From assembly GCF_010681825.2 (NCBI RefSeq), contig NZ_CP066776.1:2294001-2358000 (forward strand): a DNA stretch of 64,000 bases, in the 5' to 3' direction. Each line of letters begins with the position of its first letter. Position 1 is the first letter of the stretch. The position numbers and the translations under genes were made by a program. Source of the DNA: Sulfuriroseicoccus oceanibius. GTDB lineage: Bacteria; Verrucomicrobiota; Verrucomicrobiia; Verrucomicrobiales; SLCJ01. Below, one piece after another: positions 1 through 45,936 of this stretch. The notes under the pieces were generated by a model. That model was not told where the DNA came from and did no database searches. It was given only the letters and a program-made list of their open reading frames with translations.

Positions 1-1
1 A

Positions 2-220
2 ATTCTGGTGGAGAAAGGAGGGCTAAACTATTTGGATCTCGCTCATGCAAGTCTAGCACTGCTGACCTACTGCGAGAGTCTAGACTTGGAACCGAACGAT
101 CGAATGGGAGTAGAAATTGAGCTGGGGCGATTGCGCCATTCACTGCGATCACACGAAATGAGAGAACAAGTCGGCGCAGCCAACCGCGATAACGCTGGTG
201 ATTGTTCGCAGGATCTGTAG
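2..220 (+). CDS. Cassette 1 protein, 5'-partial, with attC-encoded tail
   Basis: The reading frame is open from the first bases of the window, so the start lies to the left; a GTG at 8 is a possible but unsupported start. The visible protein is mostly helical (LAHASLALLTYCESLDLEPN) and shows no domain I recognise. The last 18 residues, EQVGAANRDNAGDCSQDL, are translated from the left arm of attC1, and the TAG stop lies inside that attC. The same tail recurs on several other cassette proteins in this array. Confidence 0.55.
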   Translation: MLVEKGGLNYLDLAHASLALLTYCESLDLEPNDRMGVEIELGRLRHSLRSHEMREQVGAANRDNAGDCSQDL

Positions 221-267
221 CCTATCCACAGTTTCCAAGCGCGGTTGTCTGGCCTTTAACGTTCGGC
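161..267 (+). repeat. attC1 integron recombination site (type A)
   Basis: Opens with inverse core AGAGAAC and closes with core GTTCGGC; crossover is expected between G261 and T262. Arms GCAGCCAACCGCG and CGCGGTTGTCTGG pair with the small bulges typical of attC. The first type A copy of about 106 nt. Confidence 0.9.
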
Positions 268-272
268 AAAAA

Positions 273-623
273 ATGAAACTTACCCTTCCCCTTCCACTGG
301 CAATTTGTTGCGTAGCATTGGGATGGATCGGAGGTTGCCTCTTCAACCCCTACGAGACTACTCGAGAACGGCTGATCGAATCGTGGAGACTAATTGAGCC
401 AGGAATGCCGGTCGATGAAGTTGACTCGATTCTAGGTCTCCCAATGTATGATTTCAGCGCCGGTAGTGGTCGGCCTGGTTGGGTTGCGGAGGTGCTGCCC
501 GAGGAGATCATGAAGGGCCACAGAATTCGCGCTTACTACATTGATGGATTTGGCCCACAATATCTGTTGGTGGCGTTTGATGCTAGCGACCATGTTGCCT
601 TTGTGGGCAGCACCCACACATGA
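273..623 (+). CDS. Cassette 2: lipoprotein with BamE/SmpA-like segment
   Basis: Start chosen at ATG 273, six bases after the attC1 core; an upstream in-frame ATG at 198 lies inside attC1. Residues 1-22 form a lipoprotein signal ending in lipobox WIGGC. The segment RLIEPGMPVDEVDSILGLP resembles the start of BamE/SmpA-like domains (a helix followed by G-M-x-x-x-E-V-x-x-x-L-G-x-P), so a small envelope lipoprotein is likely; the family link is an inference from one motif. The stop is 10 bases before attC2, so this protein has no attC tail. Confidence 0.75.
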   Translation: MKLTLPLPLAICCVALGWIGGCLFNPYETTRERLIESWRLIEPGMPVDEVDSILGLPMYDFSAGSGRPGWVAEVLPEEIMKGHRIRAYYIDGFGPQYLLVAFDASDHVAFVGSTHT

Positions 624-633
624 AAACTTACAA

Positions 634-739
634 GCCGAACAAGTCGGCGCAGCCAACCGCGATAACGCTGGATGTTGTCCGCAAGATCTGTAGGCTTTCA
701 TCGTTGCCAGGCGCGGTTGTCTGGCCTTTAACGATCTCC
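634..739 (+). repeat. attC2 (type A, unusual GATCTCC core)
   Basis: Opens with GCCGAAC, the exact reverse complement of the core at the start of cassette 2. Ends with GATCTCC instead of a GTT core. Internal arms are of the GCAGCCAACCGCG / CGCGGTTGTCTGG type. Confidence 0.88.
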
Positions 740-744
740 ATAGA

Positions 745-1152
745 ATGAAATCTCGAATCTTCCAGCTGCTTCTCTATATGATTGCCTTGATCGGAATCTC
801 TTTTGCAGAAGATGAAGTTTTAACGACAAAGAATAAATTTTCTGAGGTACATAAAGAGCTACTGAGTAGCAGACTTGCTTTCTCTACAAAGCAAAACCTA
901 ATCTACCTCTCGGTAAAGGAGAAGGCAAACCTTCCACTTGAATACATCGACGGTAAAGGCTTCGAAGCTTCTGATGGAATTCTAACTCTGAACAGTAACT
1001 TTATTTGGCCAGGTTGCGGCTATGACCGATCAAGCTACACTATTAGCAAGATAACAGCTGAGTTTATCGTAATTGATTACGTCCAAGGAACGCCAGAGCA
1101 AGATGGATACAGAGATTCTGGACAATTCAAAATCCGCTATAACGACCAATGA
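745..1152 (+). CDS. Cassette 3: small secreted protein of unknown function
   Basis: 135 residues. Residues 1-21 (MKSRIFQLLLYMIALIGISFA) are a Sec signal peptide with likely cleavage after FA. The mature part is charged and beta-rich (LEYIDGKGFEASDGILTLN, SYTISKITAEFIVIDYVQG) with one Cys; no family recognised. The ATG is five bases after the GATCTCC core. The stop TGA precedes attC3 by three bases, so no attC tail is added. Its A/T-rich codon use differs clearly from the GC-rich chromosomal genes right of 11.4 kb. Confidence 0.7.
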   Translation: MKSRIFQLLLYMIALIGISFAEDEVLTTKNKFSEVHKELLSSRLAFSTKQNLIYLSVKEKANLPLEYIDGKGFEASDGILTLNSNFIWPGCGYDRSSYTISKITAEFIVIDYVQGTPEQDGYRDSGQFKIRYNDQ

Positions 1153-1155
1153 AAC

Positions 1156-1226
1156 GGAGATCAAGACAGTGGTGGCAATGTCTACTACGCTGCGCTGCGT
1201 AGCCATGCCACACTTCGACGTTCGGC
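1156..1226 (+). repeat. attC3 (short type, 71 nt)
   Basis: Opens with GGAGATC, the exact complement of the odd GATCTCC core at the cassette start, and ends with GTTCGGC. The arms GTGGTGGCAATG and GCCATGCCACAC pair imperfectly. It differs in sequence and length from the other sites in the array. Confidence 0.82.
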
Positions 1227-1230
1227 AAAT

Positions 1231-1644
1231 ATGAGCACCATCCGAATCGCTTGTTTCCTTTGCGTCATCTCCGTTTGCTCATGTTCTCGTAAAGACGGGC
1301 GTTCGTCGGACATTGAGTTGCTCACTAGCCAGGAGATTTCTTCAACTAGTTTCGTCAGCAGCAGTCGCGAGGCCGGCTGGACACTCTACGGAAGCGATAT
1401 TGAAGATTGGTCAGTCTTCTATCACTCGAAGAAGATCCAATGCAACGAAGGCGACACGATAACCGCTAGCTTTAATCTTGATGGAAGGCGCTACGAGAAG
1501 GATCTGACTGATGAATCTTTTGCCATCTTGGGGCGGCTTATAGGCTCTGAGGAGCTATCCGTCGCAATCTTCCGAAGAGAGAGAGATCCTCAGCCGAATT
1601 CGAAATCCTCTGCGCCGAACAAGGCGCAGCACCCGACCGCCTGA
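1231..1644 (+). CDS. Cassette 4: putative lipoprotein with NKAQHPTA tail
   Basis: 137 residues. N-terminus MSTIRIACFLCVISVCSC is a short signal with several Cys; Cys16 or Cys18 could be lipidated. The mature region has no domain I recognise; a beta-rich part (WTLYGSDIEDWSVFYHSKKIQC) is followed by a helical stretch. The last eight residues, NKAQHPTA, and the TGA stop are encoded by attC4. The ATG lies four bases after the attC3 core. Confidence 0.7.
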   Translation: MSTIRIACFLCVISVCSCSRKDGRSSDIELLTSQEISSTSFVSSSREAGWTLYGSDIEDWSVFYHSKKIQCNEGDTITASFNLDGRRYEKDLTDESFAILGRLIGSEELSVAIFRRERDPQPNSKSSAPNKAQHPTA

Positions 1645-1740
1645 CATCACTGATGTTGGACTTCACATGACCACTACAACCTTTATCCCAAAGTCAACGC
1701 TGGGCTGCCATCAGGCGGCTCGTGTGCTATAACGTTCTCC
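1614..1740 (+). repeat. attC4 (type B, 127 nt)
   Basis: GCCGAAC to GTTCTCC. Arms GCAGCACCCGACCGCCTGAC and GTCAGGCGGCTCG are partly complementary. Encodes the NKAQHPTA tail and stop of cassette 4. Confidence 0.88.
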
Positions 1741-1745
1741 TAATA

Positions 1746-2243
1746 ATGAAGCGCACACGCTACGGTTTACTAAGCCTTGCTTTCATCGTCATCGTCGCTA
1801 GTGCCGCATTCTTAGTCTTCCGGACCGTAAGACAATCGGTTGCTAGCGAAGGTTACGATACAAACGAAGCAGCATGGAATTATCTCATCCGTCGCGGAGA
1901 GATTCGATTTCAATTGGCAGATGGATGCGTAATAAAAGGTATCCAGACAGGTAACACCCAAGGGACGATAGCCAACTCCAATGAAGCATACTTGCGATTA
2001 GGATACGGCGCATTCACTACAACGATCGAGTATGCAGATGCTAGCGGGGCACCTCAGTTGATCACCATCCGAACAGATAAATTTAACAATTGGAACCGCG
2101 TGCTCTATGTGCAAGATAACCACGGAAACTTCACAAGAATTGACAACGGCGTTGTCCAAGATCCTGACTCGATCAACATAAAACAAGGAGAACAAGTCGG
2201 CGCACGCCAACCCGCTACCCGCTCCGAGTCGAAATCTGAATGA
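1746..2243 (+). CDS. Cassette 5: membrane-anchored protein with attC tail
   Basis: Start placed at ATG 1746, five bases after the core; an in-frame ATG at 1722 would lie in attC4. One N-terminal membrane segment (YGLLSLAFIVIVASAAFLVF, residues 5-24) anchors a periplasmic beta-rich domain (GEIRFQLADGCVIKGIQTG, YGAFTTTIEYADASGAPQL) with no family recognised. The C-terminus EQVGARQPATRSESKSE is attC-encoded. Confidence 0.7.
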   Translation: MKRTRYGLLSLAFIVIVASAAFLVFRTVRQSVASEGYDTNEAAWNYLIRRGEIRFQLADGCVIKGIQTGNTQGTIANSNEAYLRLGYGAFTTTIEYADASGAPQLITIRTDKFNNWNRVLYVQDNHGNFTRIDNGVVQDPDSINIKQGEQVGARQPATRSESKSE

Positions 2244-2313
2244 CAATTACAACTTTTAACCCTGAAGTCATAGTGCGCCCTCGGTAGCGGGTGGGCGGCC
2301 TATGACGTTCTGC
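2187..2313 (+). repeat. attC5 (type C, 127 nt)
   Basis: GGAGAAC to GTTCTGC. Arms carry CAACCCGCTACCCGC and GGTAGCGGGTGGGCG. The left arm encodes the C-terminus of the cassette 5 protein. Confidence 0.87.
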
Positions 2314-2322
2314 CAAATATTA

Positions 2323-2736
2323 ATGAAGGCGCTGGTTGTTACAACTTTTATCCTGCTGGGCGGGGTATGGATATTCTATGCAACGATCGTGCCATCTGTG
2401 ATGCGAGTGCGAGCCATGAGCGATGCTATGGCTTTCCAAGCAGCTTTGCATCGATGGGCCTCTGAGAAGGTCGTGGACGGTAGGCTCAACGAAGATGATG
2501 TGAAGCAGATCTTTCCAGAGAGCTATTCACTAGGAATTGGCGGGGAGAACTCTGACCATGACTTCCTCGCAATGATCGAGCACATTGCAGAGTCCAGCGC
2601 CCCTCCCGTCTGGCCTGGAGCCATCATGTGTGCTGTTGGCATAGCCGCGGCATTTCGCCTCCCATCAACAGCAATCGCAGAACAAGTCGGCGCAGCCAAC
2701 CGCGATAAGGCTGGTGGTTGTTCGCAAGATCACTAG
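2323..2736 (+). CDS. Cassette 6: small membrane protein with attC tail
   Basis: Start at ATG 2323, nine bases after the core (the in-frame ATG at 2302 falls in attC5). Residues 1-27 hold one membrane helix, and a second hydrophobic segment (WPGAIMCAVGIAAAF) lies near the C-terminus, with a charged helical domain between (VKQIFPESYSLGIGG). Function unknown. The last 18 residues (EQVGAANRDKAGGCSQDH) and the stop come from attC6. Confidence 0.7.
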   Translation: MKALVVTTFILLGGVWIFYATIVPSVMRVRAMSDAMAFQAALHRWASEKVVDGRLNEDDVKQIFPESYSLGIGGENSDHDFLAMIEHIAESSAPPVWPGAIMCAVGIAAAFRLPSTAIAEQVGAANRDKAGGCSQDH

Positions 2737-2782
2737 ACTTTCACTGTTGTCAGGCGCGGTTGTCTGGCCTTTTACGTTAGCC
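2677..2782 (+). repeat. attC6 (type A, 106 nt)
   Basis: GCAGAAC to GTTAGCC with the GCAGCCAACCGCG / GCGCGGTTGTCTGG arm pair. Its left core matches the GTTCTGC start of cassette 6. Confidence 0.9.
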
Positions 2783-2787
2783 TAAAA

Positions 2788-3240
2788 ATGGAGCGCGATA
2801 CAATCATCCGAAAGCCGAATGGCGGTGGCGTTGCTATTCTTCATATGCGTGAGATGAACTCTCCTTCGTGGGCTCACATCAGGCAAGACTACTGGATTCC
2901 CGCAAACGACCTCAGTATCTTGGGGTTTGATGACCGCATCGAAGGGCGCTTCTTTACCGACCGATACATAACCTCTGCAGACGGGCGATATCTACTGATT
3001 GAGGAGATGGAGTTCGATGGAACCCAAGAGTCCGTGGATAGTCATTCAAGCCGCATTATCATCATCGATACACAGACGGCAAGCGAGGCTGTTGTGGGAC
3101 GCATTGATGACGGTTTCTGCTTCCCGAAGAGAATCGATGGCGATACCATCTTTTACAGCAAGAGGCGGAGAGCTGAGAACGGTGTATACCATGAGTTTGA
3201 GCGTGATATCGAAAGCCTAACATGGACAAAACAAGGCTAA
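2788..3240 (+). CDS. Cassette 7: cytosolic protein of unknown function
   Basis: 150 residues without signal peptide or membrane segment. Repeated short beta patterns (SADGRYLLIEEMEF, SRIIIIDTQTASEAVVGRI, DGDTIFYSKRR) suggest an all-beta, propeller-blade-like fold; this is a guess from pattern only. ATG five bases after the GTTAGCC core. The TAA stop is formed by the attC7 core GGCTAAC itself, so the gene ends exactly at its attC. Confidence 0.7.
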   Translation: MERDTIIRKPNGGGVAILHMREMNSPSWAHIRQDYWIPANDLSILGFDDRIEGRFFTDRYITSADGRYLLIEEMEFDGTQESVDSHSSRIIIIDTQTASEAVVGRIDDGFCFPKRIDGDTIFYSKRRRAENGVYHEFERDIESLTWTKQG

Positions 3241-3359
3241 CAAGTCGCGGCACCCAACCCCTGACCCGCCGAGAGTCGCAGTTTTCAGATGAATATAAAC
3301 CTCAACCCACAGTCTACGCACGCCCCATGGTCAGGGGTTGGTGCGCTATGACGTTAGCG
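3235..3359 (+). repeat. attC7 (type B-like, 125 nt)
   Basis: GGCTAAC to GTTAGCG. Arms GGCACCCAACCCCTGACC and GGTCAGGGGTTGGTGC pair well. The left core supplies the stop codon of cassette 7. Confidence 0.9.
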
Positions 3360-3365
3360 CAAAGA

Positions 3366-3875
3366 ATGGAACGGAAAATCACGGTTAAGCCGACTACCTT
3401 TCGCGGCGTGCAAATGCGCTCAAAGACAGAGGCGACGGTCGCTGCATGGTTTGAGCAGCAGGGTTGGGAGTGGATTTACGAGCCTGAATCCCTTCTCGAT
3501 GGTATTCAATACACGCCAGACTTCTATCTTCCCCAGATCGATACTCTTGTGGAGGTGAAGCCAGTTCTCTTCATGAAAGAAGTTGAGCGTGCTATCCCAA
3601 TCGTTGAGAAACTCAAAAAGACATTTGCCGTGATTTCAGTTGGCCACGCGAACACTGTGGTTGTGGTCGATCTTTTTGGTCTCTTGGATCCATGCGATCC
3701 CTTCAACCACGGAGAAAAAGAATTTTGGGGATGGCATTCCGAAGCGCCAGATGAAGATCAGCGCACCATTTACGTGGACGACAATCAACAGAGATTTCCG
3801 ATGAACTATATCTACATGGGTGCTGGATGCAATCTTCGGTGGAAGTTTGGAAGAGAGTGCCCATGCACGAACTGA
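3366..3875 (+). CDS. Cassette 8: PD-(D/E)XK nuclease-like protein
   Basis: Start at ATG 3366, six bases after the core; in-frame upstream ATGs lie in the previous cassette. 169 residues with the order expected of a restriction-endonuclease-like core: Glu22 in RSKTEATVAAWFE, Asp52 in YTPDFYLP, and Glu63-x-Lys65 in LVEVKP. This spacing is typical of small PD-(D/E)XK nucleases such as TnsA-like or phage-type enzymes. The C-terminal 60 residues contain Cys-rich GAGCNLRWKFGRECPC. The stop is 14 bases before attC8. A metal-dependent DNA nuclease is likely; target and role are unknown. Confidence 0.75.
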   Translation: MERKITVKPTTFRGVQMRSKTEATVAAWFEQQGWEWIYEPESLLDGIQYTPDFYLPQIDTLVEVKPVLFMKEVERAIPIVEKLKKTFAVISVGHANTVVVVDLFGLLDPCDPFNHGEKEFWGWHSEAPDEDQRTIYVDDNQQRFPMNYIYMGAGCNLRWKFGRECPCTN

Positions 3876-3889
3876 CATGCCGAACGAAG

Positions 3890-4015
3890 CGCTAACAAGG
3901 CATCGCAGATCAACGCCCTGCCCGCCGCGAGTCGAAAGCCTCATGAACTATCCAACCTTCAATCCGAATTCAAGGCTCGCCCCCGGCAGGGCGTGACTGG
4001 ACTTCGACGTTAGCT
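3890..4015 (+). repeat. attC8 (type B-like, 126 nt)
   Basis: CGCTAAC to GTTAGCT. Left arm ACGCCCTGCCCGCC pairs with right arm GGCAGGGCGT. Left core is the exact complement of the cassette 8 start. Confidence 0.88.
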
Positions 4016-4024
4016 CAAAGAATC

Positions 4025-4432
4025 ATGCCGTTCCCCGTCGATCCAAAGTTCATCGATCAGGCCGAAGCGAAGCTGGGCGTGAAGTTCCCTGATTCGTTCC
4101 GCGCAGGAATGGCTGAATTGAACGGCGGCGAAATTGAGACGAATGAAGACTTGTGGCAGCTCCATCCGTTTTTCGACACGTCAGACAAGAAGCGACTGAA
4201 GAGAACCGCCAATGACATCGTTCGCGAGACGGCATCTGCAAAGGGTTGGACTGGATTTCCTGAGGGAGCGGTGGCGATTGCCTCAGGCCAGTGCGGAGAC
4301 ATTGCTATCCTCATCCGCGAGGAGCGCGAACCCACGCGATTGAGAGACACTGTTTTGCACTGGGATCATGAGACGGGAGCGACCAAGATTCTGGCACCCA
4401 CAACCGAAATCTGGCTAAACACAAGGAGCTAA
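4025..4432 (+). CDS. Cassette 9: SUKH (SMI1/KNR4) family protein
   Basis: 135 residues, cytosolic. The opening FIDQAEAKLGVKFPDSFRAGMAELNGGEI fits the SMI1/KNR4 (SUKH) signature, in which a helix with (E)xxLGxxLPxxFRxxLxxxNGG precedes a beta-sheet; later LWQLHPFFD and VLHWDHETGA fit as well. SUKH proteins are often immunity proteins against toxic nucleases or deaminases in contact-dependent systems, but no toxin gene sits in this cassette. ATG nine bases after the core. The TAA stop is part of the attC9 core AGCTAAC. Confidence 0.8.
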   Translation: MPFPVDPKFIDQAEAKLGVKFPDSFRAGMAELNGGEIETNEDLWQLHPFFDTSDKKRLKRTANDIVRETASAKGWTGFPEGAVAIASGQCGDIAILIREEREPTRLRDTVLHWDHETGATKILAPTTEIWLNTRS

Positions 4433-4551
4433 CAAGGTGTCGCTCTCAACACCTGCCCCGCTGCGAGTTCAATCCGTCATGACCATTTCACCCTCAACCC
4501 ACAGTCGAAGCCTCGCTCCCGGGCAGGTGTGAGAGGACTTCGACGTTGGGC
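4427..4551 (+). repeat. attC9 (type B-like, 125 nt)
   Basis: AGCTAAC to GTTGGGC. Arms CAACACCTGCCCCG and CGGGCAGGTGTGAG. Left core matches the GTTAGCT start of cassette 9. Confidence 0.88.
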
Positions 4552-4559
4552 CAAGTAAT

Positions 4560-5171
4560 ATGAACTCCATCAAGTGCCTTATCATCTGCCTTTCGGTGAT
4601 CCATCAGGACTACGCTCAAGCCGTAGAGACTAGTCGCCCACCTGCCACAACTTACTTGGAAATAACAGTTCCTTCGCTGACAGGTGAGGAAATAATCGAT
4701 GCGGTTCGCGAGGACAATGACCCGAAGCTTCTGTCCTCGATAGGACGAGGTGCCGCCAGGGATGGGCAAATGCGGTTCCCGCTGGTCTGGCACGAACAAG
4801 TCACACTCGGCAACCAAAGTCATACCGTCTGCTTATTCGATAGCCCTTTCCGCGTGATGCCCGGCCACAATCCAAGAGTTCTAGTTCTCATAGATCACAA
4901 CCAAAAAATCGTCACGTGGAACCAATTCACATGTGAACCAGCATTTAGATACGGCTTAATTACACAAGTAGCTTCAGACACCGCCCCTTATTTGATCACG
5001 ATAAACCCTTCCTCGAGATTCGGCGGCGAACCTTGGTTTGAACGCTATAAGTTGGAGACCGCAAAGATCACAAAAGTCAGTGAAGGCTACGACCCTCGCA
5101 TAATAAATCAGGCCCAACAAGACGGCGCAGCCAACCGCGATAACGCTGGATGTTGTTCGCAAGATCTGTAG
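4560..5171 (+). CDS. Cassette 10: probable exported protein with attC tail
   Basis: 203 residues. N-terminus MNSIKCLIICLSVIHQDYAQA reads as a weak Sec signal with possible cleavage after AQA. The mature part is beta-rich (VTLGNQSHTVCLFDSPFRVM, NPRVLVLIDHNQKIVTWNQF) with no family recognised. The end, QQDGAANRDNAGCCSQDL, comes from attC10. ATG eight bases after the GTTGGGC core. Confidence 0.68.
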   Translation: MNSIKCLIICLSVIHQDYAQAVETSRPPATTYLEITVPSLTGEEIIDAVREDNDPKLLSSIGRGAARDGQMRFPLVWHEQVTLGNQSHTVCLFDSPFRVMPGHNPRVLVLIDHNQKIVTWNQFTCEPAFRYGLITQVASDTAPYLITINPSSRFGGEPWFERYKLETAKITKVSEGYDPRIINQAQQDGAANRDNAGCCSQDL

Positions 5172-5217
5172 GCTTTCATCGTTGCCAGTCGCGGTTGTCT
5201 GGCCTTTTACGTTCTGC
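5112..5217 (+). repeat. attC10 (type A, 106 nt)
   Basis: GCCCAAC to GTTCTGC with the type A arm pair. Left core is the exact complement of the cassette 10 start. Confidence 0.9.
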
Positions 5218-5222
5218 AAAAA

Positions 5223-5843
5223 ATGAAATGCCTCGCACTACTTTTGGTTATCGCAAGCTCATCTGCTGGACAGCAGTTCGGCGATGACAATCAGTCGGGC
5301 GATTGGCTGCCGATACCCGATGGATACGTTTGGCCATCCTCAGTCGACAATCCACCAGAGTTCGAAACGGTGGTGAGGAAGTTCGCGGAGCTGCCGAAGG
5401 TATTGCGCGAAAGCATCAGAAGATATTGGCCCGAGGACGAAGATCCAGTGCAAGTGGGCATCGCTGAGATCGACCTGAACGGAGACGGGAAGCCCGAACT
5501 TTTTGTCGAAGTCCCAGCGTATAGTGGCACCGGGGGAAGCTTTTACGAGATGCTCTCCATGATCGACGGCAAGACGTATAAGGGCATCGGTGGGATTCAG
5601 GGCTGGGGATTCCAGTTCGTAACGCGGAAGAACGGATGGCTCCAGATCGAGGGAATGAGCCGCGGCGGGGGAGGGAATTACACTCGGTATTTGATGACCT
5701 TTGCCGATCAGGGCTATGAGATCAGTCGGAACGAAGGACACGATTTCAACTCCAGTAAGGTCACCATTCGCGAAACCAAGGCAGAACAATCCGGCGCTGC
5801 ACAACCCGCTACCGCTCCGGAGTCAAGGTCACCCGACAACTAG
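5223..5843 (+). CDS. Cassette 11: secreted protein with a DxNxDG loop
   Basis: 206 residues. Signal peptide MKCLALLLVIASSSAG. Around residues 80-95, IAEIDLNGDGKPELFVEV is a DxNxDG calcium-binding-type loop as in FG-GAP/VCBS or dockerin-like repeats, here present once. A Gly-rich stretch (MSRGGGGNYTRYLMTF) follows. The C-terminus (EQSGAAQPATAPESRSPDN) is attC-encoded. Probably a periplasmic or surface protein; function unknown. Confidence 0.7.
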   Translation: MKCLALLLVIASSSAGQQFGDDNQSGDWLPIPDGYVWPSSVDNPPEFETVVRKFAELPKVLRESIRRYWPEDEDPVQVGIAEIDLNGDGKPELFVEVPAYSGTGGSFYEMLSMIDGKTYKGIGGIQGWGFQFVTRKNGWLQIEGMSRGGGGNYTRYLMTFADQGYEISRNEGHDFNSSKVTIRETKAEQSGAAQPATAPESRSPDN

Positions 5844-5906
5844 AGACTTAAACCTTAGCCGAAGCCTCGCCCCCAGTAGCGGGTTGGCAGGCCTTAGGCG
5901 TTCAGA
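5781..5906 (+). repeat. attC11 (type C, 126 nt)
   Basis: GCAGAAC to GTTCAGA. Arms CAACCCGCTACCGC and GTAGCGGGTTGGC. Left core complements the GTTCTGC start of cassette 11. Confidence 0.88.
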
Positions 5907-5911
5907 TAAAA

Positions 5912-6253
5912 ATGAGATTTCTCCTCCCAATCCTAGCCCCATTGGCTCTCGTCGCGCTCCTATCTAGTTGCACCTCGATAAACGAAAATTTAGGGGCAAT
6001 AACGACCAAAGACCTCAACGAAGCGGATTTCGTTAGAGACGTTCTCAAGCAGAATCCAGATTCCAAGGGAAAGTTTAGAGTGGAGCCAGGAAGTGAGATT
6101 ACCACTGTGTTCATCTCGAGCCCCGCACGACCGGTCGACGAGAGTGCACTACGAGCGTCAATGAGGCAGATCAAAGGTGCAATCAGAGACACTTACGGAA
6201 CAACTCCGAACACGCTGCGGTTCGTCTTTAGTGAAACGACTATCGAAGAATAG
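5912..6253 (+). CDS. Cassette 12: lipoprotein of unknown function
   Basis: 113 residues. Lipoprotein signal MRFLLPILAPLALVALLSSC with Cys20 as the lipidated residue. The mature part has helix-rich segments (DESALRASMRQIKGAIRDTYG) and no domain I recognise. It stops with TAG three bases before attC12, so no attC tail. ATG five bases after the core. Confidence 0.72.
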   Translation: MRFLLPILAPLALVALLSSCTSINENLGAITTKDLNEADFVRDVLKQNPDSKGKFRVEPGSEITTVFISSPARPVDESALRASMRQIKGAIRDTYGTTPNTLRFVFSETTIEE

Positions 6254-6256
6254 GAT

Positions 6257-6362
6257 TCTGAACAAGTCGGCGCAGCCAACCGCGATAACGCTGGTGATTG
6301 TTCGCAAGATCTGTAGGCTTTCACAGTTGCCAGGCGCGGTTGTCTGGCCTTTTACGTTCTGT
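6257..6362 (+). repeat. attC12 (type A, 106 nt)
   Basis: TCTGAAC to GTTCTGT. Left core complements the unusual GTTCAGA start of cassette 12. Confidence 0.9.
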
Positions 6363-6640
6363 CTGAAAATAGATACTGAGGGCAGACGAGCACAGTAATC
6401 GAAAGAGGATCCGGCTGTCGGCTCCGCACCACGCTCTTCCCTTCAGTTTTGGAGGATAGTCGTGATAGAAGATCGCTCTACGTTTGCACCACCCGCCTGC
6501 GCCTGAGCAACGCCCCACTCGATGAGGATCGCCACCCGCATTCGGACCAGATCAAGTCGGGGTCACTGACGAGATCGCGCACCGAAGCTTTGCTGAGCAG
6601 ATGGGCGGCGGTTGGAGGCGGGCACGGAGCAAGCCTCAGG
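6363..6640 (+). other. Cassette 13: cassette body without a convincing gene
   Basis: This is the shortest complete cassette (385 bp with its attC). No ATG-started ORF of useful length exists on either strand. The only long plus-strand frame begins at TTG 6449, has a low-complexity Arg/Ser-rich composition, and runs into attC13 to give EQVGTANRDNAGCCPQDL. A GGAGG at 6451 precedes a GTG that opens only 14 codons. It may be a non-coding, promoter-bearing or decayed cassette. Confidence 0.5.
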
Positions 6641-6747
6641 ACAGAACAAGTCGGCACAGCCAACCGCGATAACGCTGGATGTTGTCCGCAAGATCTGTAG
6701 GATCTCCCCTATTGTCAGGCGCGGTTGTCTAGCCTTTAACGTTCTGC
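6641..6747 (+). repeat. attC13 (type A, 107 nt)
   Basis: ACAGAAC to GTTCTGC, with the normal type A arm pair apart from single changes. Left core complements the GTTCTGT start of cassette 13, so the cassette boundary is intact although its gene is not evident. Confidence 0.88.
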
Positions 6748-6760
6748 AAATAATTAGAAG

Positions 6761-7291
6761 ATGAAACGAACGTTGCATCACTTACTAGCCGGAATCCTCT
6801 CGGTGAGCGTGGCACACGCTGCGGAGCTCAAAGAGATTGCAGAGAAGTTTGTTAGCGCCTGGGTTGCTGGTGATTACGCCAAGCTCGACGAAGTCTATCT
6901 TGAGAGCCCTACCAGAGAACGAGCTGATGAGGCATTCGCTGAGGCATTACCACAGATCAAAGCGGGCAAGCTTACAGTTGCCCATGTAGACAAGGAGCTC
7001 GTGATCGGTGATTTAGGCGTAACCTTGATGCGAATTGATTTCGAAGGTCATCCCGTAGCCAACTTCAAGCCGATCATCTGTGTTCGAACCGAAGCAGGGT
7101 GGCGCCTATTTCCATGGGCATCTCAATCCGACTTAAAAGTTCTTATGGATCAGCGAACGCCAGACGAGCAGATTCACCTAAGATTGTTCAATACTTGGGC
7201 AAACCTTGTCGAAGAACAGATCGAAAAAGAAGCAGAACAAGCCGGCGCAGCCAACCGCGATAACACTGGTGGTTGTTCGCAAGATCACTAG
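6761..7291 (+). CDS. Cassette 14: secreted NTF2/SnoaL-like protein
   Basis: 176 residues. Signal peptide MKRTLHHLLAGILSVSVAHA. The mature start AELKEIAEKFVSAWVAGDYAKLDEVY is typical of NTF2-like folds (first helices of SnoaL/DUF4878-type domains), and the later VRTEAGWRLFPWAS would be the last strands. The assignment rests on pattern. The tail EQAGAANRDNTGGCSQDH comes from attC14. ATG 13 bases after the core. Confidence 0.7.
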   Translation: MKRTLHHLLAGILSVSVAHAAELKEIAEKFVSAWVAGDYAKLDEVYLESPTRERADEAFAEALPQIKAGKLTVAHVDKELVIGDLGVTLMRIDFEGHPVANFKPIICVRTEAGWRLFPWASQSDLKVLMDQRTPDEQIHLRLFNTWANLVEEQIEKEAEQAGAANRDNTGGCSQDH

Positions 7292-7337
7292 ACTTTCACA
7301 GTTGCCAGGCGCGGTTGTCTGGCCTTTTACGTTCTGT
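7232..7337 (+). repeat. attC14 (type A, 106 nt)
   Basis: GCAGAAC to GTTCTGT; left core complements the GTTCTGC start of cassette 14. Confidence 0.9.
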
Positions 7338-7351
7338 AGAAGATCCCCCCG

Positions 7352-7921
7352 ATGAAACGACTCTTTGTCCTAGCGGTCAGCCTTTCTGCTATTGTTAGCT
7401 GTAGCGCCCAAGAGGAGCGCCTAGTAGTTGCGGAAATCCCTAACTTCACCGAGCTTGAGAGCTGGGTAAATTTCGTGAAGAGAGATGATTTCACTCTTCT
7501 CAAGTCGTTTGATCGAAAGGGGTACTTTGTCGGTGTATTCAAAGACTCTCGCGGAGATCTCGCTATTTGCACATATTGGAAAGACAATAGCAACCCTAAG
7601 CCTCATGACGGTTCTTGCTATGATGTGCAAGACTTGTATGGAAACAGCCTACACGACACCGACTCTGATCGTAATCCTAGCATATACCGCGTGCTGGTCA
7701 TCGAGGATCCTCAACAGGAGATTAACTGGATAGACGGCACCCTCTTCCCTCTGACCAAAGACGCTCCTGATCGCGCGCGGTTGATCTTCAGAGTAAGCAA
7801 ATCCGGAGGAACTTGGTCCAACATCCTCGACGAAGTCATCGAGCTAACTCAGGAAAAATCTTCAGAACAAGTCGGCGCAGCCAACCGCGATAACGCTGGT
7901 GATTGTTCGCAAGATCTGTAG
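7352..7921 (+). CDS. Cassette 15: probable lipoprotein with attC tail
   Basis: 189 residues. Signal MKRLFVLAVSLSAIVSC with Cys17 in a lipobox-like AIVSC. The mature protein is acidic with mixed alpha/beta pattern and three more Cys; no family recognised. Its last 18 residues (EQVGAANRDNAGDCSQDL) are identical to the tail of cassette 1 although the bodies are unrelated. Confidence 0.7.
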   Translation: MKRLFVLAVSLSAIVSCSAQEERLVVAEIPNFTELESWVNFVKRDDFTLLKSFDRKGYFVGVFKDSRGDLAICTYWKDNSNPKPHDGSCYDVQDLYGNSLHDTDSDRNPSIYRVLVIEDPQQEINWIDGTLFPLTKDAPDRARLIFRVSKSGGTWSNILDEVIELTQEKSSEQVGAANRDNAGDCSQDL

Positions 7922-7967
7922 GCTTTCACAGTTGCCAGGCGCGGTTGTCTGGCCTTTTACGTTCGCT
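7862..7967 (+). repeat. attC15 (type A, 106 nt)
   Basis: TCAGAAC to GTTCGCT. Its left core has one mismatch with the complement (ACAGAAC) of the GTTCTGT cassette start; it is the only cassette in the window with an imperfect core pair. Confidence 0.88.
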
Positions 7968-7972
7968 AGAGA

Positions 7973-8323
7973 ATGAAGATATACTCGTTCCTCAATTCTA
8001 TCCCAGGGATGGAAGATCTAAACAAACAGGAGAGGATGTCAGTATGGCGGTCATCTTACTTCTCGCTGTTTAAGACGTGGCGAACGTATCTCGTGATATG
8101 CACAGGCGTTTTGTTCGGGCTACTCTTGACGCTTCTCCTGCCCAGTTCATTAGCTCCATTCAGTGCAGGTTTAGGAGCAGGGTTGCCAATATTTATTCTT
8201 GAGCAGCTAGCATGCAGAAAATGTGTATTTGAGGTGCAAGAATATAAGAAGCGGAAAAAGGACTGGTCTCCCTTACCTAATTCAAACAGAAGCGAACAAG
8301 ACGCTGGTGGCAAGGGCGACTAG
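7973..8323 (+). CDS. Cassette 16: small membrane protein
   Basis: 116 residues with two adjacent membrane segments (TYLVICTGVLFGLLLTLLL and LAPFSAGLGAGLPIFILEQL) between a charged N-terminal and a basic C-terminal cytosolic part (EVQEYKKRKKDW). Unknown function. The last residues, EQDAGGKGD, are attC-encoded. ATG five bases after the core. Confidence 0.68.
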   Translation: MKIYSFLNSIPGMEDLNKQERMSVWRSSYFSLFKTWRTYLVICTGVLFGLLLTLLLPSSLAPFSAGLGAGLPIFILEQLACRKCVFEVQEYKKRKKDWSPLPNSNRSEQDAGGKGD

Positions 8324-8386
8324 CGTCTCTTCCTCGCTTCGCTCTGGAAAGATTGACCCCGCCCTGCCACCGCTTTAACGTTGTGT
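8291..8386 (+). repeat. attC16 (96 nt)
   Basis: AGCGAAC to GTTGTGT. Arms CGCTGGTGGCAAGGGCG and CGCCCTGCCACCGC pair well. A distinct attC subtype. Confidence 0.87.
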
Positions 8387-8392
8387 AGAACA

Positions 8393-8746
8393 ATGAAATC
8401 TTTTGCGAAGTTCATTGGTGCCTCCTTCATCGTGATGGTTTGCGCTTCCTTAGGATTTGGAGTAGCCCAGTGGCTCGCTACTCCAACACTCTTCACCCCT
8501 CTATGCCTAATGCCAGCCGCTTTTGTTTTCTCTTGGTTCAACCAATCGAAGTTTGATTGGGTTAAGACGACCCTGTTCCTTCTTTTACTGGGCGCGTCGA
8601 TCTGGAGTGTTCGTGCTCTTGTCCCTGCTCCGGAAGGGGTGAACTTTGCCTTCATAGGCCCGGTTGTTTTGATCGTGTTCTTGCCGCGACTTGAACGAAT
8701 ATACGATCGCCTACGAGAGAGGAAGTTGCACAACGAGACTGTGTAG
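8393..8746 (+). CDS. Cassette 17: small polytopic membrane protein
   Basis: Start at ATG 8393, six bases after the core. 117 residues with three or four membrane helices (IGASFIVMVCASLGFGVAQW, FTPLCLMPAAFVFSWF, TTLFLLLLGASIWSVRALV, FAFIGPVVLIVFLPRL) and a basic C-terminus. No family recognised. It stops about 95 bases before attC17, leaving an untranslated 3' stretch with no visible gene. Confidence 0.68.
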   Translation: MKSFAKFIGASFIVMVCASLGFGVAQWLATPTLFTPLCLMPAAFVFSWFNQSKFDWVKTTLFLLLLGASIWSVRALVPAPEGVNFAFIGPVVLIVFLPRLERIYDRLRERKLHNETV

Positions 8747-8840
8747 GCAGGTCCGACTCAGCAACAACCATTGACATCGAACCGAGAAGTCGAAGCACGT
8801 TCTTCAGGGTTTGGTCGAACATGGCAATGGAACTTCAATT

Positions 8841-8946
8841 ACACAACAAGTCGGCGCAGCCAACCGCGATAACGCTGGATGTTGTCCGCAAGATCACTAG
8901 ACTTTCACAGTTGCCAGGCGCGGTTGTCTGGCCTTTTACGTTCGCT
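8841..8946 (+). repeat. attC17 (type A, 106 nt)
   Basis: ACACAAC to GTTCGCT. Left core is the exact complement of the uncommon GTTGTGT start of cassette 17. Confidence 0.9.
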
Positions 8947-8960
8947 AAGAAATAGACTCC

Positions 8961-9296
8961 ATGAAAAGCTCACAGATTCTCGCAGCCACAGGGCTAATTC
9001 TGTGCCTTATGTTCACGGGTTGCCACGGGGACATCAAGGAAGTGTGGGCAGGCGGATCAGGTCGAGTTCCAGAATCGGTGCCCGCGCTTACAGGATTTTC
9101 CATCACTCCGAGCGAAGCGCAATCTATCGCGGAGAAGGAGTTCGGAATGAGGAAGACGGTGCAGCACATCTATGCTGATTCACGCTTCTACTACATTGTT
9201 GACGGGCTCTTTGGATCTAGCCGCTCCAAGGCTGCAAAGACTGGAGTTCGGATCGATGGGAAGACCGGCGAATGCGTTCGGTTCGATCGCTCCTGA
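8961..9296 (+). CDS. Cassette 18: lipoprotein, possibly PepSY-like
   Basis: 111 residues. Lipoprotein signal ends at LMFTGC (Cys21). The mature segment SITPSEAQSIAEKEFG, followed by YYIVDGLFG and GVRIDGKTGECVRF, follows the helix-strand-strand order of PepSY-like domains; a weak inference. Stop lies 24 bases before attC18. Confidence 0.7.
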   Translation: MKSSQILAATGLILCLMFTGCHGDIKEVWAGGSGRVPESVPALTGFSITPSEAQSIAEKEFGMRKTVQHIYADSRFYYIVDGLFGSSRSKAAKTGVRIDGKTGECVRFDRS

Positions 9297-9320
9297 CACT
9301 ACCTCCGAGACAAAAACCAA

Positions 9321-9446
9321 AGCGAACAAGCCGCAGCACCCAACCGCCTGACCCGCCCCGAGTCGAATTCTTCCCGTGATTAGAACCTTTAACCCACAGT
9401 CAACGCGCGGCTGCCGTCAGGCGGTTGGTGTGCTTTGACGTTCGGC
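9321..9446 (+). repeat. attC18 (type B, 126 nt)
   Basis: AGCGAAC to GTTCGGC; arms GCAGCACCCAACCGCCTGAC and GTCAGGCGGTTGGTGTGC. Here the gene stops before the site, so the NKPQHPTA-type tail is not used. Confidence 0.9.
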
Positions 9447-9455
9447 AGAAATGAC

Positions 9456-9827
9456 ATGACCACCGAGAAGATCATCATGGTTCGCGGAGCGCGCGTCGTG
9501 CCGGTTGCTCTTCTGATCGCGGCAATATTGTTGAGTGCTTCGCGTTCGCCGTGGTGGCTTCTTTCGATTCCGTTCATATGGATCGGATGGATTTGCGCGG
9601 CTCCAAACCTGAATCTCGCAAACGGACTTCTCGCCTACTTGTCGATGATTTGCGGATTCGTTCTGATGCTGTTCCACGAGCCTTCGGGTGCAGCAATCGC
9701 AGGTGGGGCAGCAGCCAGCTTCTACCTCTGTGCCCTTGAGATGCGGGTCACTGCGAAGCCCTACAATCCCACCGATTTCCCCGAAACAAAAGACAAGCCG
9801 AACAAGCCGCAGCACCCAACCGCCTGA
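9456..9827 (+). CDS. Cassette 19: small membrane protein with NKPQHPTA tail
   Basis: Start at ATG 9456; the ATG at 9451 is in another frame and stops at once. 123 residues with about three to four membrane helices (VVPVALLIAAILLSA, WWLLSIPFIWIGWICAA, GLLAYLSMICGFVLMLF, AIAGGAAASFYLCAL). Unknown function. NKPQHPTA and the stop are encoded by attC19. Confidence 0.68.
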   Translation: MTTEKIIMVRGARVVPVALLIAAILLSASRSPWWLLSIPFIWIGWICAAPNLNLANGLLAYLSMICGFVLMLFHEPSGAAIAGGAAASFYLCALEMRVTAKPYNPTDFPETKDKPNKPQHPTA

Positions 9828-9922
9828 CCCGCTTCGAGTCGAATTTTCACCGTGATTACCAACCCTCACCCACAGTCAATCCGCGGCTGCCGTCAGGCGG
9901 TTGGTGTGCTATGACGTTGGGT
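9797..9922 (+). repeat. attC19 (type B, 126 nt)
   Basis: GCCGAAC to GTTGGGT. Nearly identical to attC18 in both arms; left core complements the cassette 19 start. Confidence 0.9.
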
Positions 9923-9935
9923 GAAAAATTAAGAA

Positions 9936-10325
9936 ATGCTTTTCCGTGCAATCATACTATTAACTGCGTTCGCTGCCGGGTGCACTGATCAGAAATTTGA
10001 CGATTGGCGAGGTAGTTGCAATTTCAATGGGGTCGAAATTGTTCTGCCGGACAATGGCCTTGGAAGTACGGGGGTTAGCCCAAAGCATTTTGAATATCGT
10101 TGGCACGATAAAACACTAACGGTCAAAGATCTTGGTGATGGAACCGTATCAGTTTCCACCCCATTGGTGAACGATGAGATAGTTAGTAAAGAGCTTGTTA
10201 TTGTGATTGATGCTGAAGGCGAAATTTCAACACAGAAGCCAAAGCTCAAGAACGAGAACCTGAAAACCCAACAAGTCGGCGCAGCCAACAGCGATAAGGC
10301 TGGTGACTGTTCGGAAGATCTGTAG
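9936..10325 (+). CDS. Cassette 20: lipoprotein with attC tail
   Basis: 129 residues. Signal MLFRAIILLTAFAAGC with Cys16 lipobox. The mature domain is beta-rich (GVEIVLPDNGLGSTG, FEYRWHDKTLTVKDLGDGTVSV) and unrecognised. The C-terminus QQVGAANSDKAGDCSEDL is a mutated version of the common tail, from the degenerate attC20. Confidence 0.7.
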   Translation: MLFRAIILLTAFAAGCTDQKFDDWRGSCNFNGVEIVLPDNGLGSTGVSPKHFEYRWHDKTLTVKDLGDGTVSVSTPLVNDEIVSKELVIVIDAEGEISTQKPKLKNENLKTQQVGAANSDKAGDCSEDL

Positions 10326-10372
10326 ACTCTCCCCTATTGCCTGGCCTAGTTGTCAGGTCTTTGATGTTCGAC
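10266..10372 (+). repeat. attC20, last and degenerate (107 nt)
   Basis: ACCCAAC to GTTCGAC. Left arm has CAACAGCG instead of CAACCGCG, and the right arm reads GGCCTAGTTGTCAGGTC instead of the usual GCGCGGTTGTCTGGCC, so stem pairing is weakened. No attC is visible to its right. Confidence 0.82.
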
Positions 10373-10376
10373 GGAA

Positions 10377-11012
10377 ATGAAGATCCTCTCCCTCCTGCTC
10401 CTGTTTGTAATTGGCTCGTTGCACAGTTTGGCGAACCAAGCAGACCGTGTGCGAGATATCTCTAAAGCGCTGCACTCAAGTAAGGTTCCTGAATTGGTGC
10501 TGGAGAAGTCGACATTCGAGGATGCTCTCGCTTTAGTTCGTGCTGAATGGAATAGACAGCACCCAACCCTGGATTTTCCAGTGGCACTTGCCGAATACGA
10601 GAGAGACCGCGGGCATCCTGATTTGATCACGGTGTCGCTTCGTGATGTGCTATTCATCGATGCATTGAGATCCCTGGGAGTTGTGGCTAACCGTCGCCTC
10701 ACAGAGAAAAGCGAACTACTGACGTTTAGCGACTACGGTCTGATTGTTGAGCATTGGATCACAAAGAGTTACCGCGTAACCGAATCTCTACTGAGGAAGC
10801 TAAAGTTGGGAAGGAATCCAACTGGAGAAGAGCTCGTTGCGGCGTATCGACGCTATGGCGTGATTCTGGAGGACTGGATGTCAATCAGCCACCAGGCAGA
10901 TGAGGGTTTGATCGTCACTGCTCTGGAAAAGCAGCAAGATCAGATTGCCGGCATTAATCACTTGCTGGCTCAAGGCTTTACGATACACAAGGCAGATCCG
11001 GCTCAAGAGTGA
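10377..11012 (+). CDS. Terminal integron gene, secreted, without attC
   Basis: 211 residues. Signal peptide MKILSLLLLFVIGSLHSLA. Residues about 35-115 (LEKSTFEDALALVRAEWNRQ, LDFPVAL, ITVSLRDVLFIDALRSLGV) resemble STN-like modules seen in verrucomicrobial and planctomycete proteins; the rest is helical. It directly follows the attC20 core, as a cassette gene would. The expected closing core GTCGAAC is absent downstream, so it is either a fixed terminal cassette that lost its attC or host DNA joined at the array end. Confidence 0.7.
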   Translation: MKILSLLLLFVIGSLHSLANQADRVRDISKALHSSKVPELVLEKSTFEDALALVRAEWNRQHPTLDFPVALAEYERDRGHPDLITVSLRDVLFIDALRSLGVVANRRLTEKSELLTFSDYGLIVEHWITKSYRVTESLLRKLKLGRNPTGEELVAAYRRYGVILEDWMSISHQADEGLIVTALEKQQDQIAGINHLLAQGFTIHKADPAQE

Positions 11013-43485: not shown

Positions 43486-45936
43486 ATGAACAACAACCCA
43501 ACCATCCTGATCATTGGCGGTGTCGCCGGTGGCGCATCCGCAGCCGCCCGCGCCCGCCGACTGAATGAATCCGCCCGCATTATCATGCTTGAGCGTGGAC
43601 CGGACGTCTCGTTCGCCAACTGCGGCCTTCCTTACCACATCGGCGGTGAGATCGCCGATCGTGAGCGCCTCGCCGTGCAGACCCCGGAGTCGCTGCGCGA
43701 GCTTCTCGCTATCGAAGTGGAAACCCTCACCGAGGCCACCGCGATCGACCGCGCGAAGAAGGAAGTCTCTGTCCGCCGCCTTGCCGATGGATCGACCGAC
43801 ACCATCGCTTATGACAAGTTGATCCTCGCACCTGGTGCCAGCCCGATCGTGCCACCGCTCGAGGGCATCCAGGACGACAAGATCGTCACCCTGCGCAACC
43901 TGCAGGACATGGACCGCATCAAAGCGGCAGCTGCCGAAGTCGACAGCGTGCTCGTGATCGGTGCCGGCTTCATTGGTCTGGAAATGGCCGAGCAGCTCAA
44001 GCACATCGGCAAACAAGTCAGTGTGGTGGAACTGCAGGAGCAGGTGTTGCCACAAGTCGACCCTGAAATCGCCGCGCCAATCGCAGCCGAATTGCGCTCG
44101 AATGGCATCGAACTCGTACTGCAGGACGGCGTGGCCGGCTTCAAGCGCGAGGGCAATCAGATCACCGCGACCCTGAACTCGGGCCAGTCGCTGACTGCCG
44201 GGTTGGTCATCCTTTCAATCGGCGTGAAGCCTGAGAGCGGTTTGGCCAAGGACGCAGGACTCGAGCTCGGTGCCCGCGGCCACATCAGCGTCAACCCATT
44301 CCAGCAAACCAGCGATCCGGACATCTACGCCGTGGGCGACGTCTGCGAAACCGCCGACCCAATCCTCGGCGAGCGTGCCGCGATTCCACTCGGTGGCCCG
44401 GCCAACCGCCAGGGCCGCACGGCAGCCGACCACATCTTCCAAGGCGACAAAGCATTGGAATACCCGGGCAGCCTCGGCACCGCGATTGTCCGTGTGTTCG
44501 ACTTGGCGCTGGGCAGCACTGGTCACAACGAGCGCCGTCTCCAAGCCGCAGGCGTTGACTACGGTCATGTCACCATCAACGCCCACCAGCACGCAGGATA
44601 CTTCCCTGGCGCCCAGAACCTGACGCTCAAGTTGCTCTGGGACAAGAAGGACGGCCGCGTGCTCGGCGCATCCGCTGTGGGTGCCGACGGTGTGGACAAG
44701 CGACTCGATGTCATTGCGACCGCGATCGTGGGTAAATTGACCATCGACGACCTGTGCCACGTCGAGCTCTCGTACGCTCCGCCATTTGGCAGCGCCAAGG
44801 ACCCGGTGAACCTGGCCGCCTTCGCCGCCTGCAACATTCGCGACGGATTGACCGACGTGGTTTACGAATTCCCGACCGACGAAGACACTCAGTTGATCGA
44901 CGTTCGCCCGGCAGATCTGGCGCAAATCCGCCCGATCCCAGGTGCGGTGAGCATTCCACTTGAGCAGATCCGCAGCCGTCTCGGCGAAATCGACAAATCG
45001 CGTCCGGTAGTGACCGTCTGTGCTCTCGGCAAGATGAGCTATTTCGCCACCCGCATCCTCAAACAAAACGGCTTCAACGCAGCCAGCGTGGTTGGAGGTC
45101 TGGCATTGGTGCCAGCTCCAGGCAAAGACGCCACCCCAACCCCACAACCAACTACTTCCACACCTGCCCCACAAACCATGACCACCCCGACATCCGCCCC
45201 AACCAAACTCGACTGCACCGGCCTCGCCTGCCCTGGCCCGATCATGCGAGTCAAGGAAGCCGCATCAAAGCTCGCCCCAGGTGATTCGCTCGAAATCAGC
45301 GCAAGCGACGGCGGCTTCGCCAACGACCTGCCTGCTTTCTGCGAAGCCAACCAGTACGAGTTCCTCGGTGCCCGCAAGGAAGGCGGAGTCATCATCGGCG
45401 GTCTGCGCAAGCCGGAAGCCGGAAGCGCCTTGGCTACCGCAACCCCAACTGGCGGCGCCATCAACAACGACGCGACCTTGGTTGTCTTCTCGCAGGAGAT
45501 GGACAAAGCACTCGCTGCCTTGGTGATCGCGAACGGCGCGCTCGCCATGGGCGGCAAGGCCACCTTGTTCTTCACCTTCTGGGGCTTGAACGCACTGCGT
45601 AAGCACGAAGCTCCACCGATCAAGGACAAGACCTTCATGGACAAGATGTTCGGCACCATGCTGCCACAGGGCATCCACCGCTTGCCGCTGAGCAACATGA
45701 ACTACATGGGCATGGGCGCGAAAATGATGAAGGACCGCATGGCCTCGAAAGACCTGCCTAACCTCGAAGGTCTCCTCGCTGACGCCAAGAAGGGCGGCGC
45801 CCGCCTCGTCGCTTGCGCCATGTCGATGGAAGCCATGGGTATCCGTCAGGAAGAGCTCATCGACGGTGTCGAGATCGGTGGCGTGGCCGAGTTCCTCGGA
45901 GCCTCCGGCAAAGCCGGCACCAACCTCTTCATCTAA
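43486..45936 (+). CDS. CoA-disulfide reductase-rhodanese-TusA-DsrE fusion
   Basis: 816 residues from ATG 43486. Domain 1 (about 1-445): FAD/NAD(P)H reductase with IIGGVAGGASAAARARRL, catalytic Cys46 in SFANCGLPY, VLVIGAGFIGLEMAEQL and YAVGDVCET, followed by the dimerisation domain. Domain 2 (about 455-545): rhodanese with Cys512 in VTVCALGKMSYF. A Pro/Thr linker follows. Domain 3 (about 573-640): TusA with Cys577 and Cys582 in LDCTGLACPGPIMRVKEAA. Domain 4 (about 655-816): DsrE/F-like with FTFWGLNALRK and GARLVACAMSMEAMGI. It probably moves and reduces persulfide sulfur in the cytosol. A terminator follows. Confidence 0.93.
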   Translation: MNNNPTILIIGGVAGGASAAARARRLNESARIIMLERGPDVSFANCGLPYHIGGEIADRERLAVQTPESLRELLAIEVETLTEATAIDRAKKEVSVRRLADGSTDTIAYDKLILAPGASPIVPPLEGIQDDKIVTLRNLQDMDRIKAAAAEVDSVLVIGAGFIGLEMAEQLKHIGKQVSVVELQEQVLPQVDPEIAAPIAAELRSNGIELVLQDGVAGFKREGNQITATLNSGQSLTAGLVILSIGVKPESGLAKDAGLELGARGHISVNPFQQTSDPDIYAVGDVCETADPILGERAAIPLGGPANRQGRTAADHIFQGDKALEYPGSLGTAIVRVFDLALGSTGHNERRLQAAGVDYGHVTINAHQHAGYFPGAQNLTLKLLWDKKDGRVLGASAVGADGVDKRLDVIATAIVGKLTIDDLCHVELSYAPPFGSAKDPVNLAAFAACNIRDGLTDVVYEFPTDEDTQLIDVRPADLAQIRPIPGAVSIPLEQIRSRLGEIDKSRPVVTVCALGKMSYFATRILKQNGFNAASVVGGLALVPAPGKDATPTPQPTTSTPAPQTMTTPTSAPTKLDCTGLACPGPIMRVKEAASKLAPGDSLEISASDGGFANDLPAFCEANQYEFLGARKEGGVIIGGLRKPEAGSALATATPTGGAINNDATLVVFSQEMDKALAALVIANGALAMGGKATLFFTFWGLNALRKHEAPPIKDKTFMDKMFGTMLPQGIHRLPLSNMNYMGMGAKMMKDRMASKDLPNLEGLLADAKKGGARLVACAMSMEAMGIRQEELIDGVEIGGVAEFLGASGKAGTNLFI

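Follow-up and report, generated by a model that had tools for sequence, protein, structure and literature searches.

The window analyzed here is a 64-kb stretch of the Sulfuriroseicoccus oceanibius chromosome (G000:C1:2294001-2358000). Its left end, positions 1 to 10372 on the + strand, is occupied by the last 20 attC sites of a long cassette array, the distal part of an element referred to here as integron A, whose integrase gene lies outside the window to the left. In a 16S EUB338-III test all five matches read GCTGCCACCCGTAGGTGT, and the EUB338-III variant marks the phylum Verrucomicrobiota. Integrons are already known from this phylum, which is listed in PMC8618304.

A chain search for complementary 7-base cores with pairing arms recovered 20 attC sites between window positions 161 and 10372, all on the + strand. 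In order, they occupy 161-267, 634-739, 1156-1226, 1614-1740, 2187-2313, 2677-2782, 3235-3359, 3890-4015, 4427-4551, 5112-5217, 5781-5906, 6257-6362, 6641-6747, 7232-7337, 7862-7967, 8291-8386, 8841-8946, 9321-9446, 9797-9922 and 10266-10372. The sites at 1156 and 8291 belong to a short class. At 3235 and 4427 the preceding gene takes its stop codon from the TAA in the opening core. A covariance model (R1), trained on 40 attC sites from two other arrays of this chromosome (B and C) and on none from the window, returned the same 20 intervals with E values of 1e-5 to 2e-21 (105.7 bits for each of the first two sites, 109.6 bits for the tenth) and no further attC in the whole 64 kb at E <= 0.01. 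R1 contains only 8 base pairs and is thus largely a sequence profile. Rfam gave no match over the array, even at E 0.1. Bottom-strand folding of seven sites yielded z scores of -1.6 or lower for five and -1.57 for one short site; the last site, at 10266, is degenerate and folded no differently from its shuffles (z -0.12).

In 18 of the 19 complete window cassettes, the core at the cassette start is complementary at 7 of 7 positions to the core with which that cassette's attC opens; the lone exception matches at 6 of 7 (attC at 7862). Even a variant core is found at both ends of its cassette: the second attC closes on GATCTCC, which starts the cassette of gene 745-1152, and the attC of that cassette (1156) opens with the complement GGAGATC. 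Across arrays A, B and C, 125 of 128 cassettes have complementary ends, where 2000 shuffles gave 10 on average and never more than 22; the two cores within a single attC, as it lies, match in just 9 of 128. Complementary ends at this frequency are the signature of circular cassettes put in singly. An initial annotation, made from the letters alone, had described 20 attC sites in one orientation, the 18-of-19 core pattern and cassette insertion as its cause, and had proposed a covariance-model scan as a check; both searches agree with it at every site.

That annotation had also placed the integrase and attI to the left of the window and advised looking there for a recombinase with the integron-specific insertion; an integron integrase and an attI-type core do lie there. 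IntI-A (G000:C1:2266699-2268075, + strand, 458 residues) scores 364 bits against TIGR02249 (cut-off 265). After it come 345 bp, an attI-type core and then 64 attC sites in unbroken succession, the last of them ending at window position 10372. The distance from attI-A to the window is 26 kb, with 44 attC sites preceding the window and the last 20 within it. The catalytic R, K, H-x-x-R, H and Y are present, and the stretch through the integron insertion aligns to 2a3v, the Vibrio integron integrase that is also the best solved relative of IntI-A (E 2e-67). These results confirm the attC array and support its reading as an integron. Directly after its last core, a terminal open reading frame (ORF; 10377-11012, + strand) has a start like that of a cassette gene and no attC of its own.

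Further platforms were found in the same chromosome. In integron B, IntI-B (2974275-2975528, - strand, 417 residues, 328 bits against TIGR02249 with the same cut-off of 265) is divergent from its 49 attC sites, which extend on the + strand up to 3003036 and likewise give way to a cassette-like terminal ORF without attC. Array C comprises 15 attC sites on the - strand (2734593-2725869) without an integrase and is followed by a 500-residue ORF whose start is further from the core than in A or B; its attI region of 109 bp (G000:C1:2735046-2735154, - strand, in L034) is 93% identical to attI-B. Locus D, also without an integrase, consists of an attI-like match at 1717354 and a single cassette, whose attC matches but has a degenerate core on its far side (L115:855-1731, equal to G000:C1:1717354-1718230). 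The attI sites are predicted from rightly placed attI-type cores and, in B, C and D, from a common upstream element. These three loci have TTGAC-N17-CACACT about 90-115 bp upstream of the core, likely a cassette promoter, and this motif is absent from A. Since C and D keep attI-type regions, they are best described as integrase-less platforms and not as bare attC clusters. By this prediction the chromosome has four attI-bearing platforms, two complete integrons and two without an integrase. Solitary attC sites lie near 1443183 and 1594677.

Related copies exist for 40 of the 128 cassettes, in 15 clusters of which 8 span arrays. The copies are single cassettes in differing neighborhoods, and identities of up to 100% between arrays indicate that cassettes have moved between platforms. 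The sequence itself shows an integrase gene, a chain of attC sites, the signature at the cassette ends, a core of attI type, and near-identical cassettes shared with other platforms; we infer that both integrases, IntI-A and IntI-B, are active and jointly serve the four platforms. The locus could instead be a relic with genuine attC sites, in which neither integrase still acts and the common cassettes are segmental duplications. The degenerate last attC and the integrase-less C and D would fit such decay, but we regard it as improbable, given that both intI reading frames are intact, that the ends still match in nearly all cassettes and that the copies are single cassettes with different neighbors, some of them identical across arrays.

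The cassette genes of the window all lie on the + strand. Those at 1231-1644 (tail NKAQHPTA), 1746-2243, 5223-5843, 7973-8323 and 9456-9827 (tail NKPQHPTA) end within an attC, and the gene at 2788-3240 has its stop within the attC core. An attC-encoded tail is also carried by the products of 2323-2736, which has a 99% copy elsewhere in array A (L030:6237-6650), 4560-5171, 6761-7291, 7352-7921 (EQVGAANRDNAGDCSQDL) and 9936-10325, the last cassette gene. Start codons mostly lie 11-15 nt past the core, after an A-rich stretch, and a Shine-Dalgarno motif was found in 1 of 116 cassette genes. Of 97 independent families, 49 extend into attC, 42 of them in a single frame (p 5e-14); the commonest end in that frame is a stop within attC, which appends a tail like EQVGAANRDNAGDCSQDL. 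Another 10 families stop in the same frame at the TAA of the core. ORFs stopping ahead of attC show no frame bias, and in relatives 8 of 11 use the one frame. We found no description of this bias in a limited literature search. While the bias in the array and in relatives would suit a functional peptide, such as a stability or sorting signal, a codon-position test found no excess of silent changes in the tails versus unused attC and so does not support selection on the peptide. The bias can be explained without function, either by a frame whose stop comes late and is safe or by an ancestral stop in the core from which the present ends descend. A role for the tail appears unlikely, about as much so as decay of the integron.

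Most of the cargo is unrecognizable, as the initial annotation had anticipated. Only 1 of 18 scanned window cassette proteins exceeded the Pfam cut-off, an SMI1/KNR4 (SUKH) immunity-type protein encoded at 4025-4432 (E 2.7e-16). The genes at 745-1152, 5912-6253 and 8961-9296 have no recognized family, that at 273-623 has relatives with 95-96% identical DNA in arrays B and C, and that at 8393-8746 has 97-98% copies in arrays A and C. For 3366-3875, PADLOC gave a weak match to PDC-S68; a nuclease identity was rejected, there being no Pfam match. Pfam matches were few over 103 cassette proteins, and immunity-type families recur among the recognizable products: Barstar (2), SUKH/SMI1_KNR4, WapI-like, Imm21, Imm32 and Imm39 (window 4025-4432, L032:1641-2045, L031:16011-16502 and others). 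Outside the window, PADLOC identified the anti-phage family PD-T4-7 in two related cassettes (L030:4681-5532, E 1.8e-30; L034:11406-12272, E 1.6e-41). A simple hydropathy rule assigned a signal- or membrane-like N-terminus to about 65 of the 111 products. The cassette at 6357-6741 is gene-less and belongs to seven related copies of about 385 nt, the other six in L029 and L030, confined to array A. Double changes at only 3 of 111 predicted pairs gave no support for a structured RNA in these seven copies. Gene-less cassettes of Vibrio can bear promoters (PMC11014356).

The two integrases share an extended architecture. About 100 extra N-terminal residues are present on IntI-A, IntI-B and most long relatives. 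Folded alone, this extension is predicted to form a four-helix domain (predicted local distance difference test, pLDDT, 90), for which the best Foldseek hits in the PDB are chains of IntI, XerA and Cre, with probabilities of 0.98 to 0.57 and E values of only 0.4-1.6. Profile comparison with the integrase's own core-binding domain gave E 8e-4 at a probability of 25%, collinear across the domain, and the extension profile also matches the core-binding region in several IntI. The structural model and the profiles point to the extension probably being a duplicated core-binding domain. Strong IntI matches were obtained in 81 of 289 Verrucomicrobiota genomes, most with frames of at least 400 residues, and IntI-A and IntI-B fall into two distinct, well-supported clades. 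IntI-A is codirectional with its own cassettes, as is its same-genus relative, while other relatives with visible attC sites are divergent; among the relatives seen, the codirectional layout is confined to the IntI-A clade. As a separate observation, two genomes of the same order (G006 and G015) each contain more than 20 attC-type matches and no strong integron integrase match.

Control of the integrases was addressed through LexA-type boxes, with a Verrucomicrobia LexA motif serving solely as a lead. The pattern TGTTC-N4-GAACA has exactly four exact copies in the genome, and a reversed control pattern has none. The lexA gene (TIGR00498) has one copy about 20 bp upstream, another precedes an operon made up of an imuA-like gene, imuB and dnaE2, and the remaining two cover the start codons of intI-A and intI-B. 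By our own estimate 2-3 exact boxes per 3.5 Mb are expected by chance, so it is the positions that carry the evidence. In the order, a box with no more than one mismatch lies within 150 bp of the start in 12 of 36 intI, where 0.16 would be expected; in six of these 12 it is at exactly -7, and the start codon falls inside it. The frequencies are 3/6 and 7/12 in the IntI-A and IntI-B clades. No box was found at 30 intI of more distant Verrucomicrobiota. We predict that LexA represses the two integrase genes through this box. That the boxes are coincidental and the integrases outside SOS control is an explanation to which the expected number and the box-less distant intI lend something, yet all four copies sit at SOS-type genes or intI starts and the excess in the order is often at the identical position, which leaves chance quite unlikely. 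PMC8565304 cites a Verrucomicrobia LexA motif published after Cambray et al.; because a box occurs at the organism's own lexA, our argument is independent of it. Cambray et al. (2011, PMC3108266) searched 1,103 intI with 15 motifs and found the E. coli type alone, and descriptions of an SOS-integrase link that we found in the literature concern Proteobacteria only.

A last alternative, that the repeats are another palindromic family between genes, draws on the high similarity of the dominant attC class but is negligible, since several length classes of differing sequence have common cores and one orientation, an integrase and attI stand at one end, and the cassette-end test refutes it, with complementarity reaching over about 550 bp across each gene.

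Taken together, we consider it highly probable that window positions 1-10372 are the distal third of integron A, a large sedentary chromosomal integron, and that its activity is coupled to the SOS response. IntI-A would insert cassettes at attI-A, using the bottom strand of attC in its folded form as the recombination substrate, and the window would hold the array end farthest from the insertion point. LexA would repress both integrase genes at the box containing the start codon; upon DNA damage the integrases would be expressed along with lexA and imuA-imuB-dnaE2, and cassette shuffling would be linked to SOS mutagenesis. Transcription of the codirectional intI of integron A may additionally continue into the first cassettes. 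This weakest step is suggested by a scan after intI-A that detected no terminator-like site on the + strand between it and the cassettes; a promoter scan at attI-A detected no sigma-70-type site. Points against the overall explanation are the degenerate last attC, the number of boxes expected by chance, the box-less distant intI, and the dependence of read-through on an unsuccessful terminator search. The broader proposal, in which a non-proteobacterial integrase lineage came under SOS control via a LexA motif of its own, the operator being built across the start codon, and which further includes a second core-binding domain, a codirectional SOS transcript for the integrase and first cassettes in A, and two integrases serving four attI platforms, is tentative and, as a whole, less likely than not.

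By GC skew, replication starts near 0.5 Mb and terminates near 2.24 Mb. From skew alone, the attC bottom strand is the lagging-strand template in A and B and the opposite holds for array C. The gene dnaA lies at the contig start (G000:C1:1), about 0.5 Mb off the skew-indicated origin, and was rejected as an origin marker since the skew origin is elsewhere. The sole Rfam match in the window, V_AS7 (43517-43685, - strand), was rejected as an RNA; it is antisense to a pyridine-nucleotide-disulphide oxidoreductase gene (coenzyme A-disulphide-reductase-like) and probably a coding resemblance.

Compared with known systems, integron A resembles the sedentary chromosomal integrons (superintegrons) of Vibrio in its integrase with the integron insertion, its predicted attI, its long one-orientation array and its mostly unrecognized cargo. 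Unlike these, the chromosome has two complete integrons plus two predicted integrase-less attI platforms and mixes several attC classes, and the A and B arrays have the orientation that in Vibrio is the inverted, recombination-prone one and not the preferred one (PMC11023631). A predicted LexA-type operator at intI is shared with the LexA-controlled integrases of class 1 and Vibrio integrons (PMC3108266), but here it reads TGTTC-N4-GAACA with the start codon within the box, in contrast to the E. coli-type motif. An intI transcribed in the direction of attI and the cassettes has been described in Treponema (PMC3607928); a distinguishing point here is that the codirectional integron coexists with a divergent one in the same chromosome. 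Array C and locus D resemble CALIN (clusters of attC sites lacking integron-integrases), from which they differ by their attI-type regions and array A by its contiguous integrase.

Three features, as predicted from sequence, appear to be new: a lineage-specific operator of SOS type at each of the two integrases, the additional integrase domain, and the arrangement in four platforms. The recognizable cargo leans to immunity proteins and the anti-phage family PD-T4-7. The extra integrase domain, the coexisting codirectional and divergent integrons and the attI platforms without an integrase offer objects for tests. Earlier descriptions tie SOS control of cassette shuffling to a LexA motif of the E. 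coli type. If the same wiring with a different operator is true in Verrucomicrobiota, the coupling of shuffling to damage would have arisen more than once, or would have travelled and been re-fitted.

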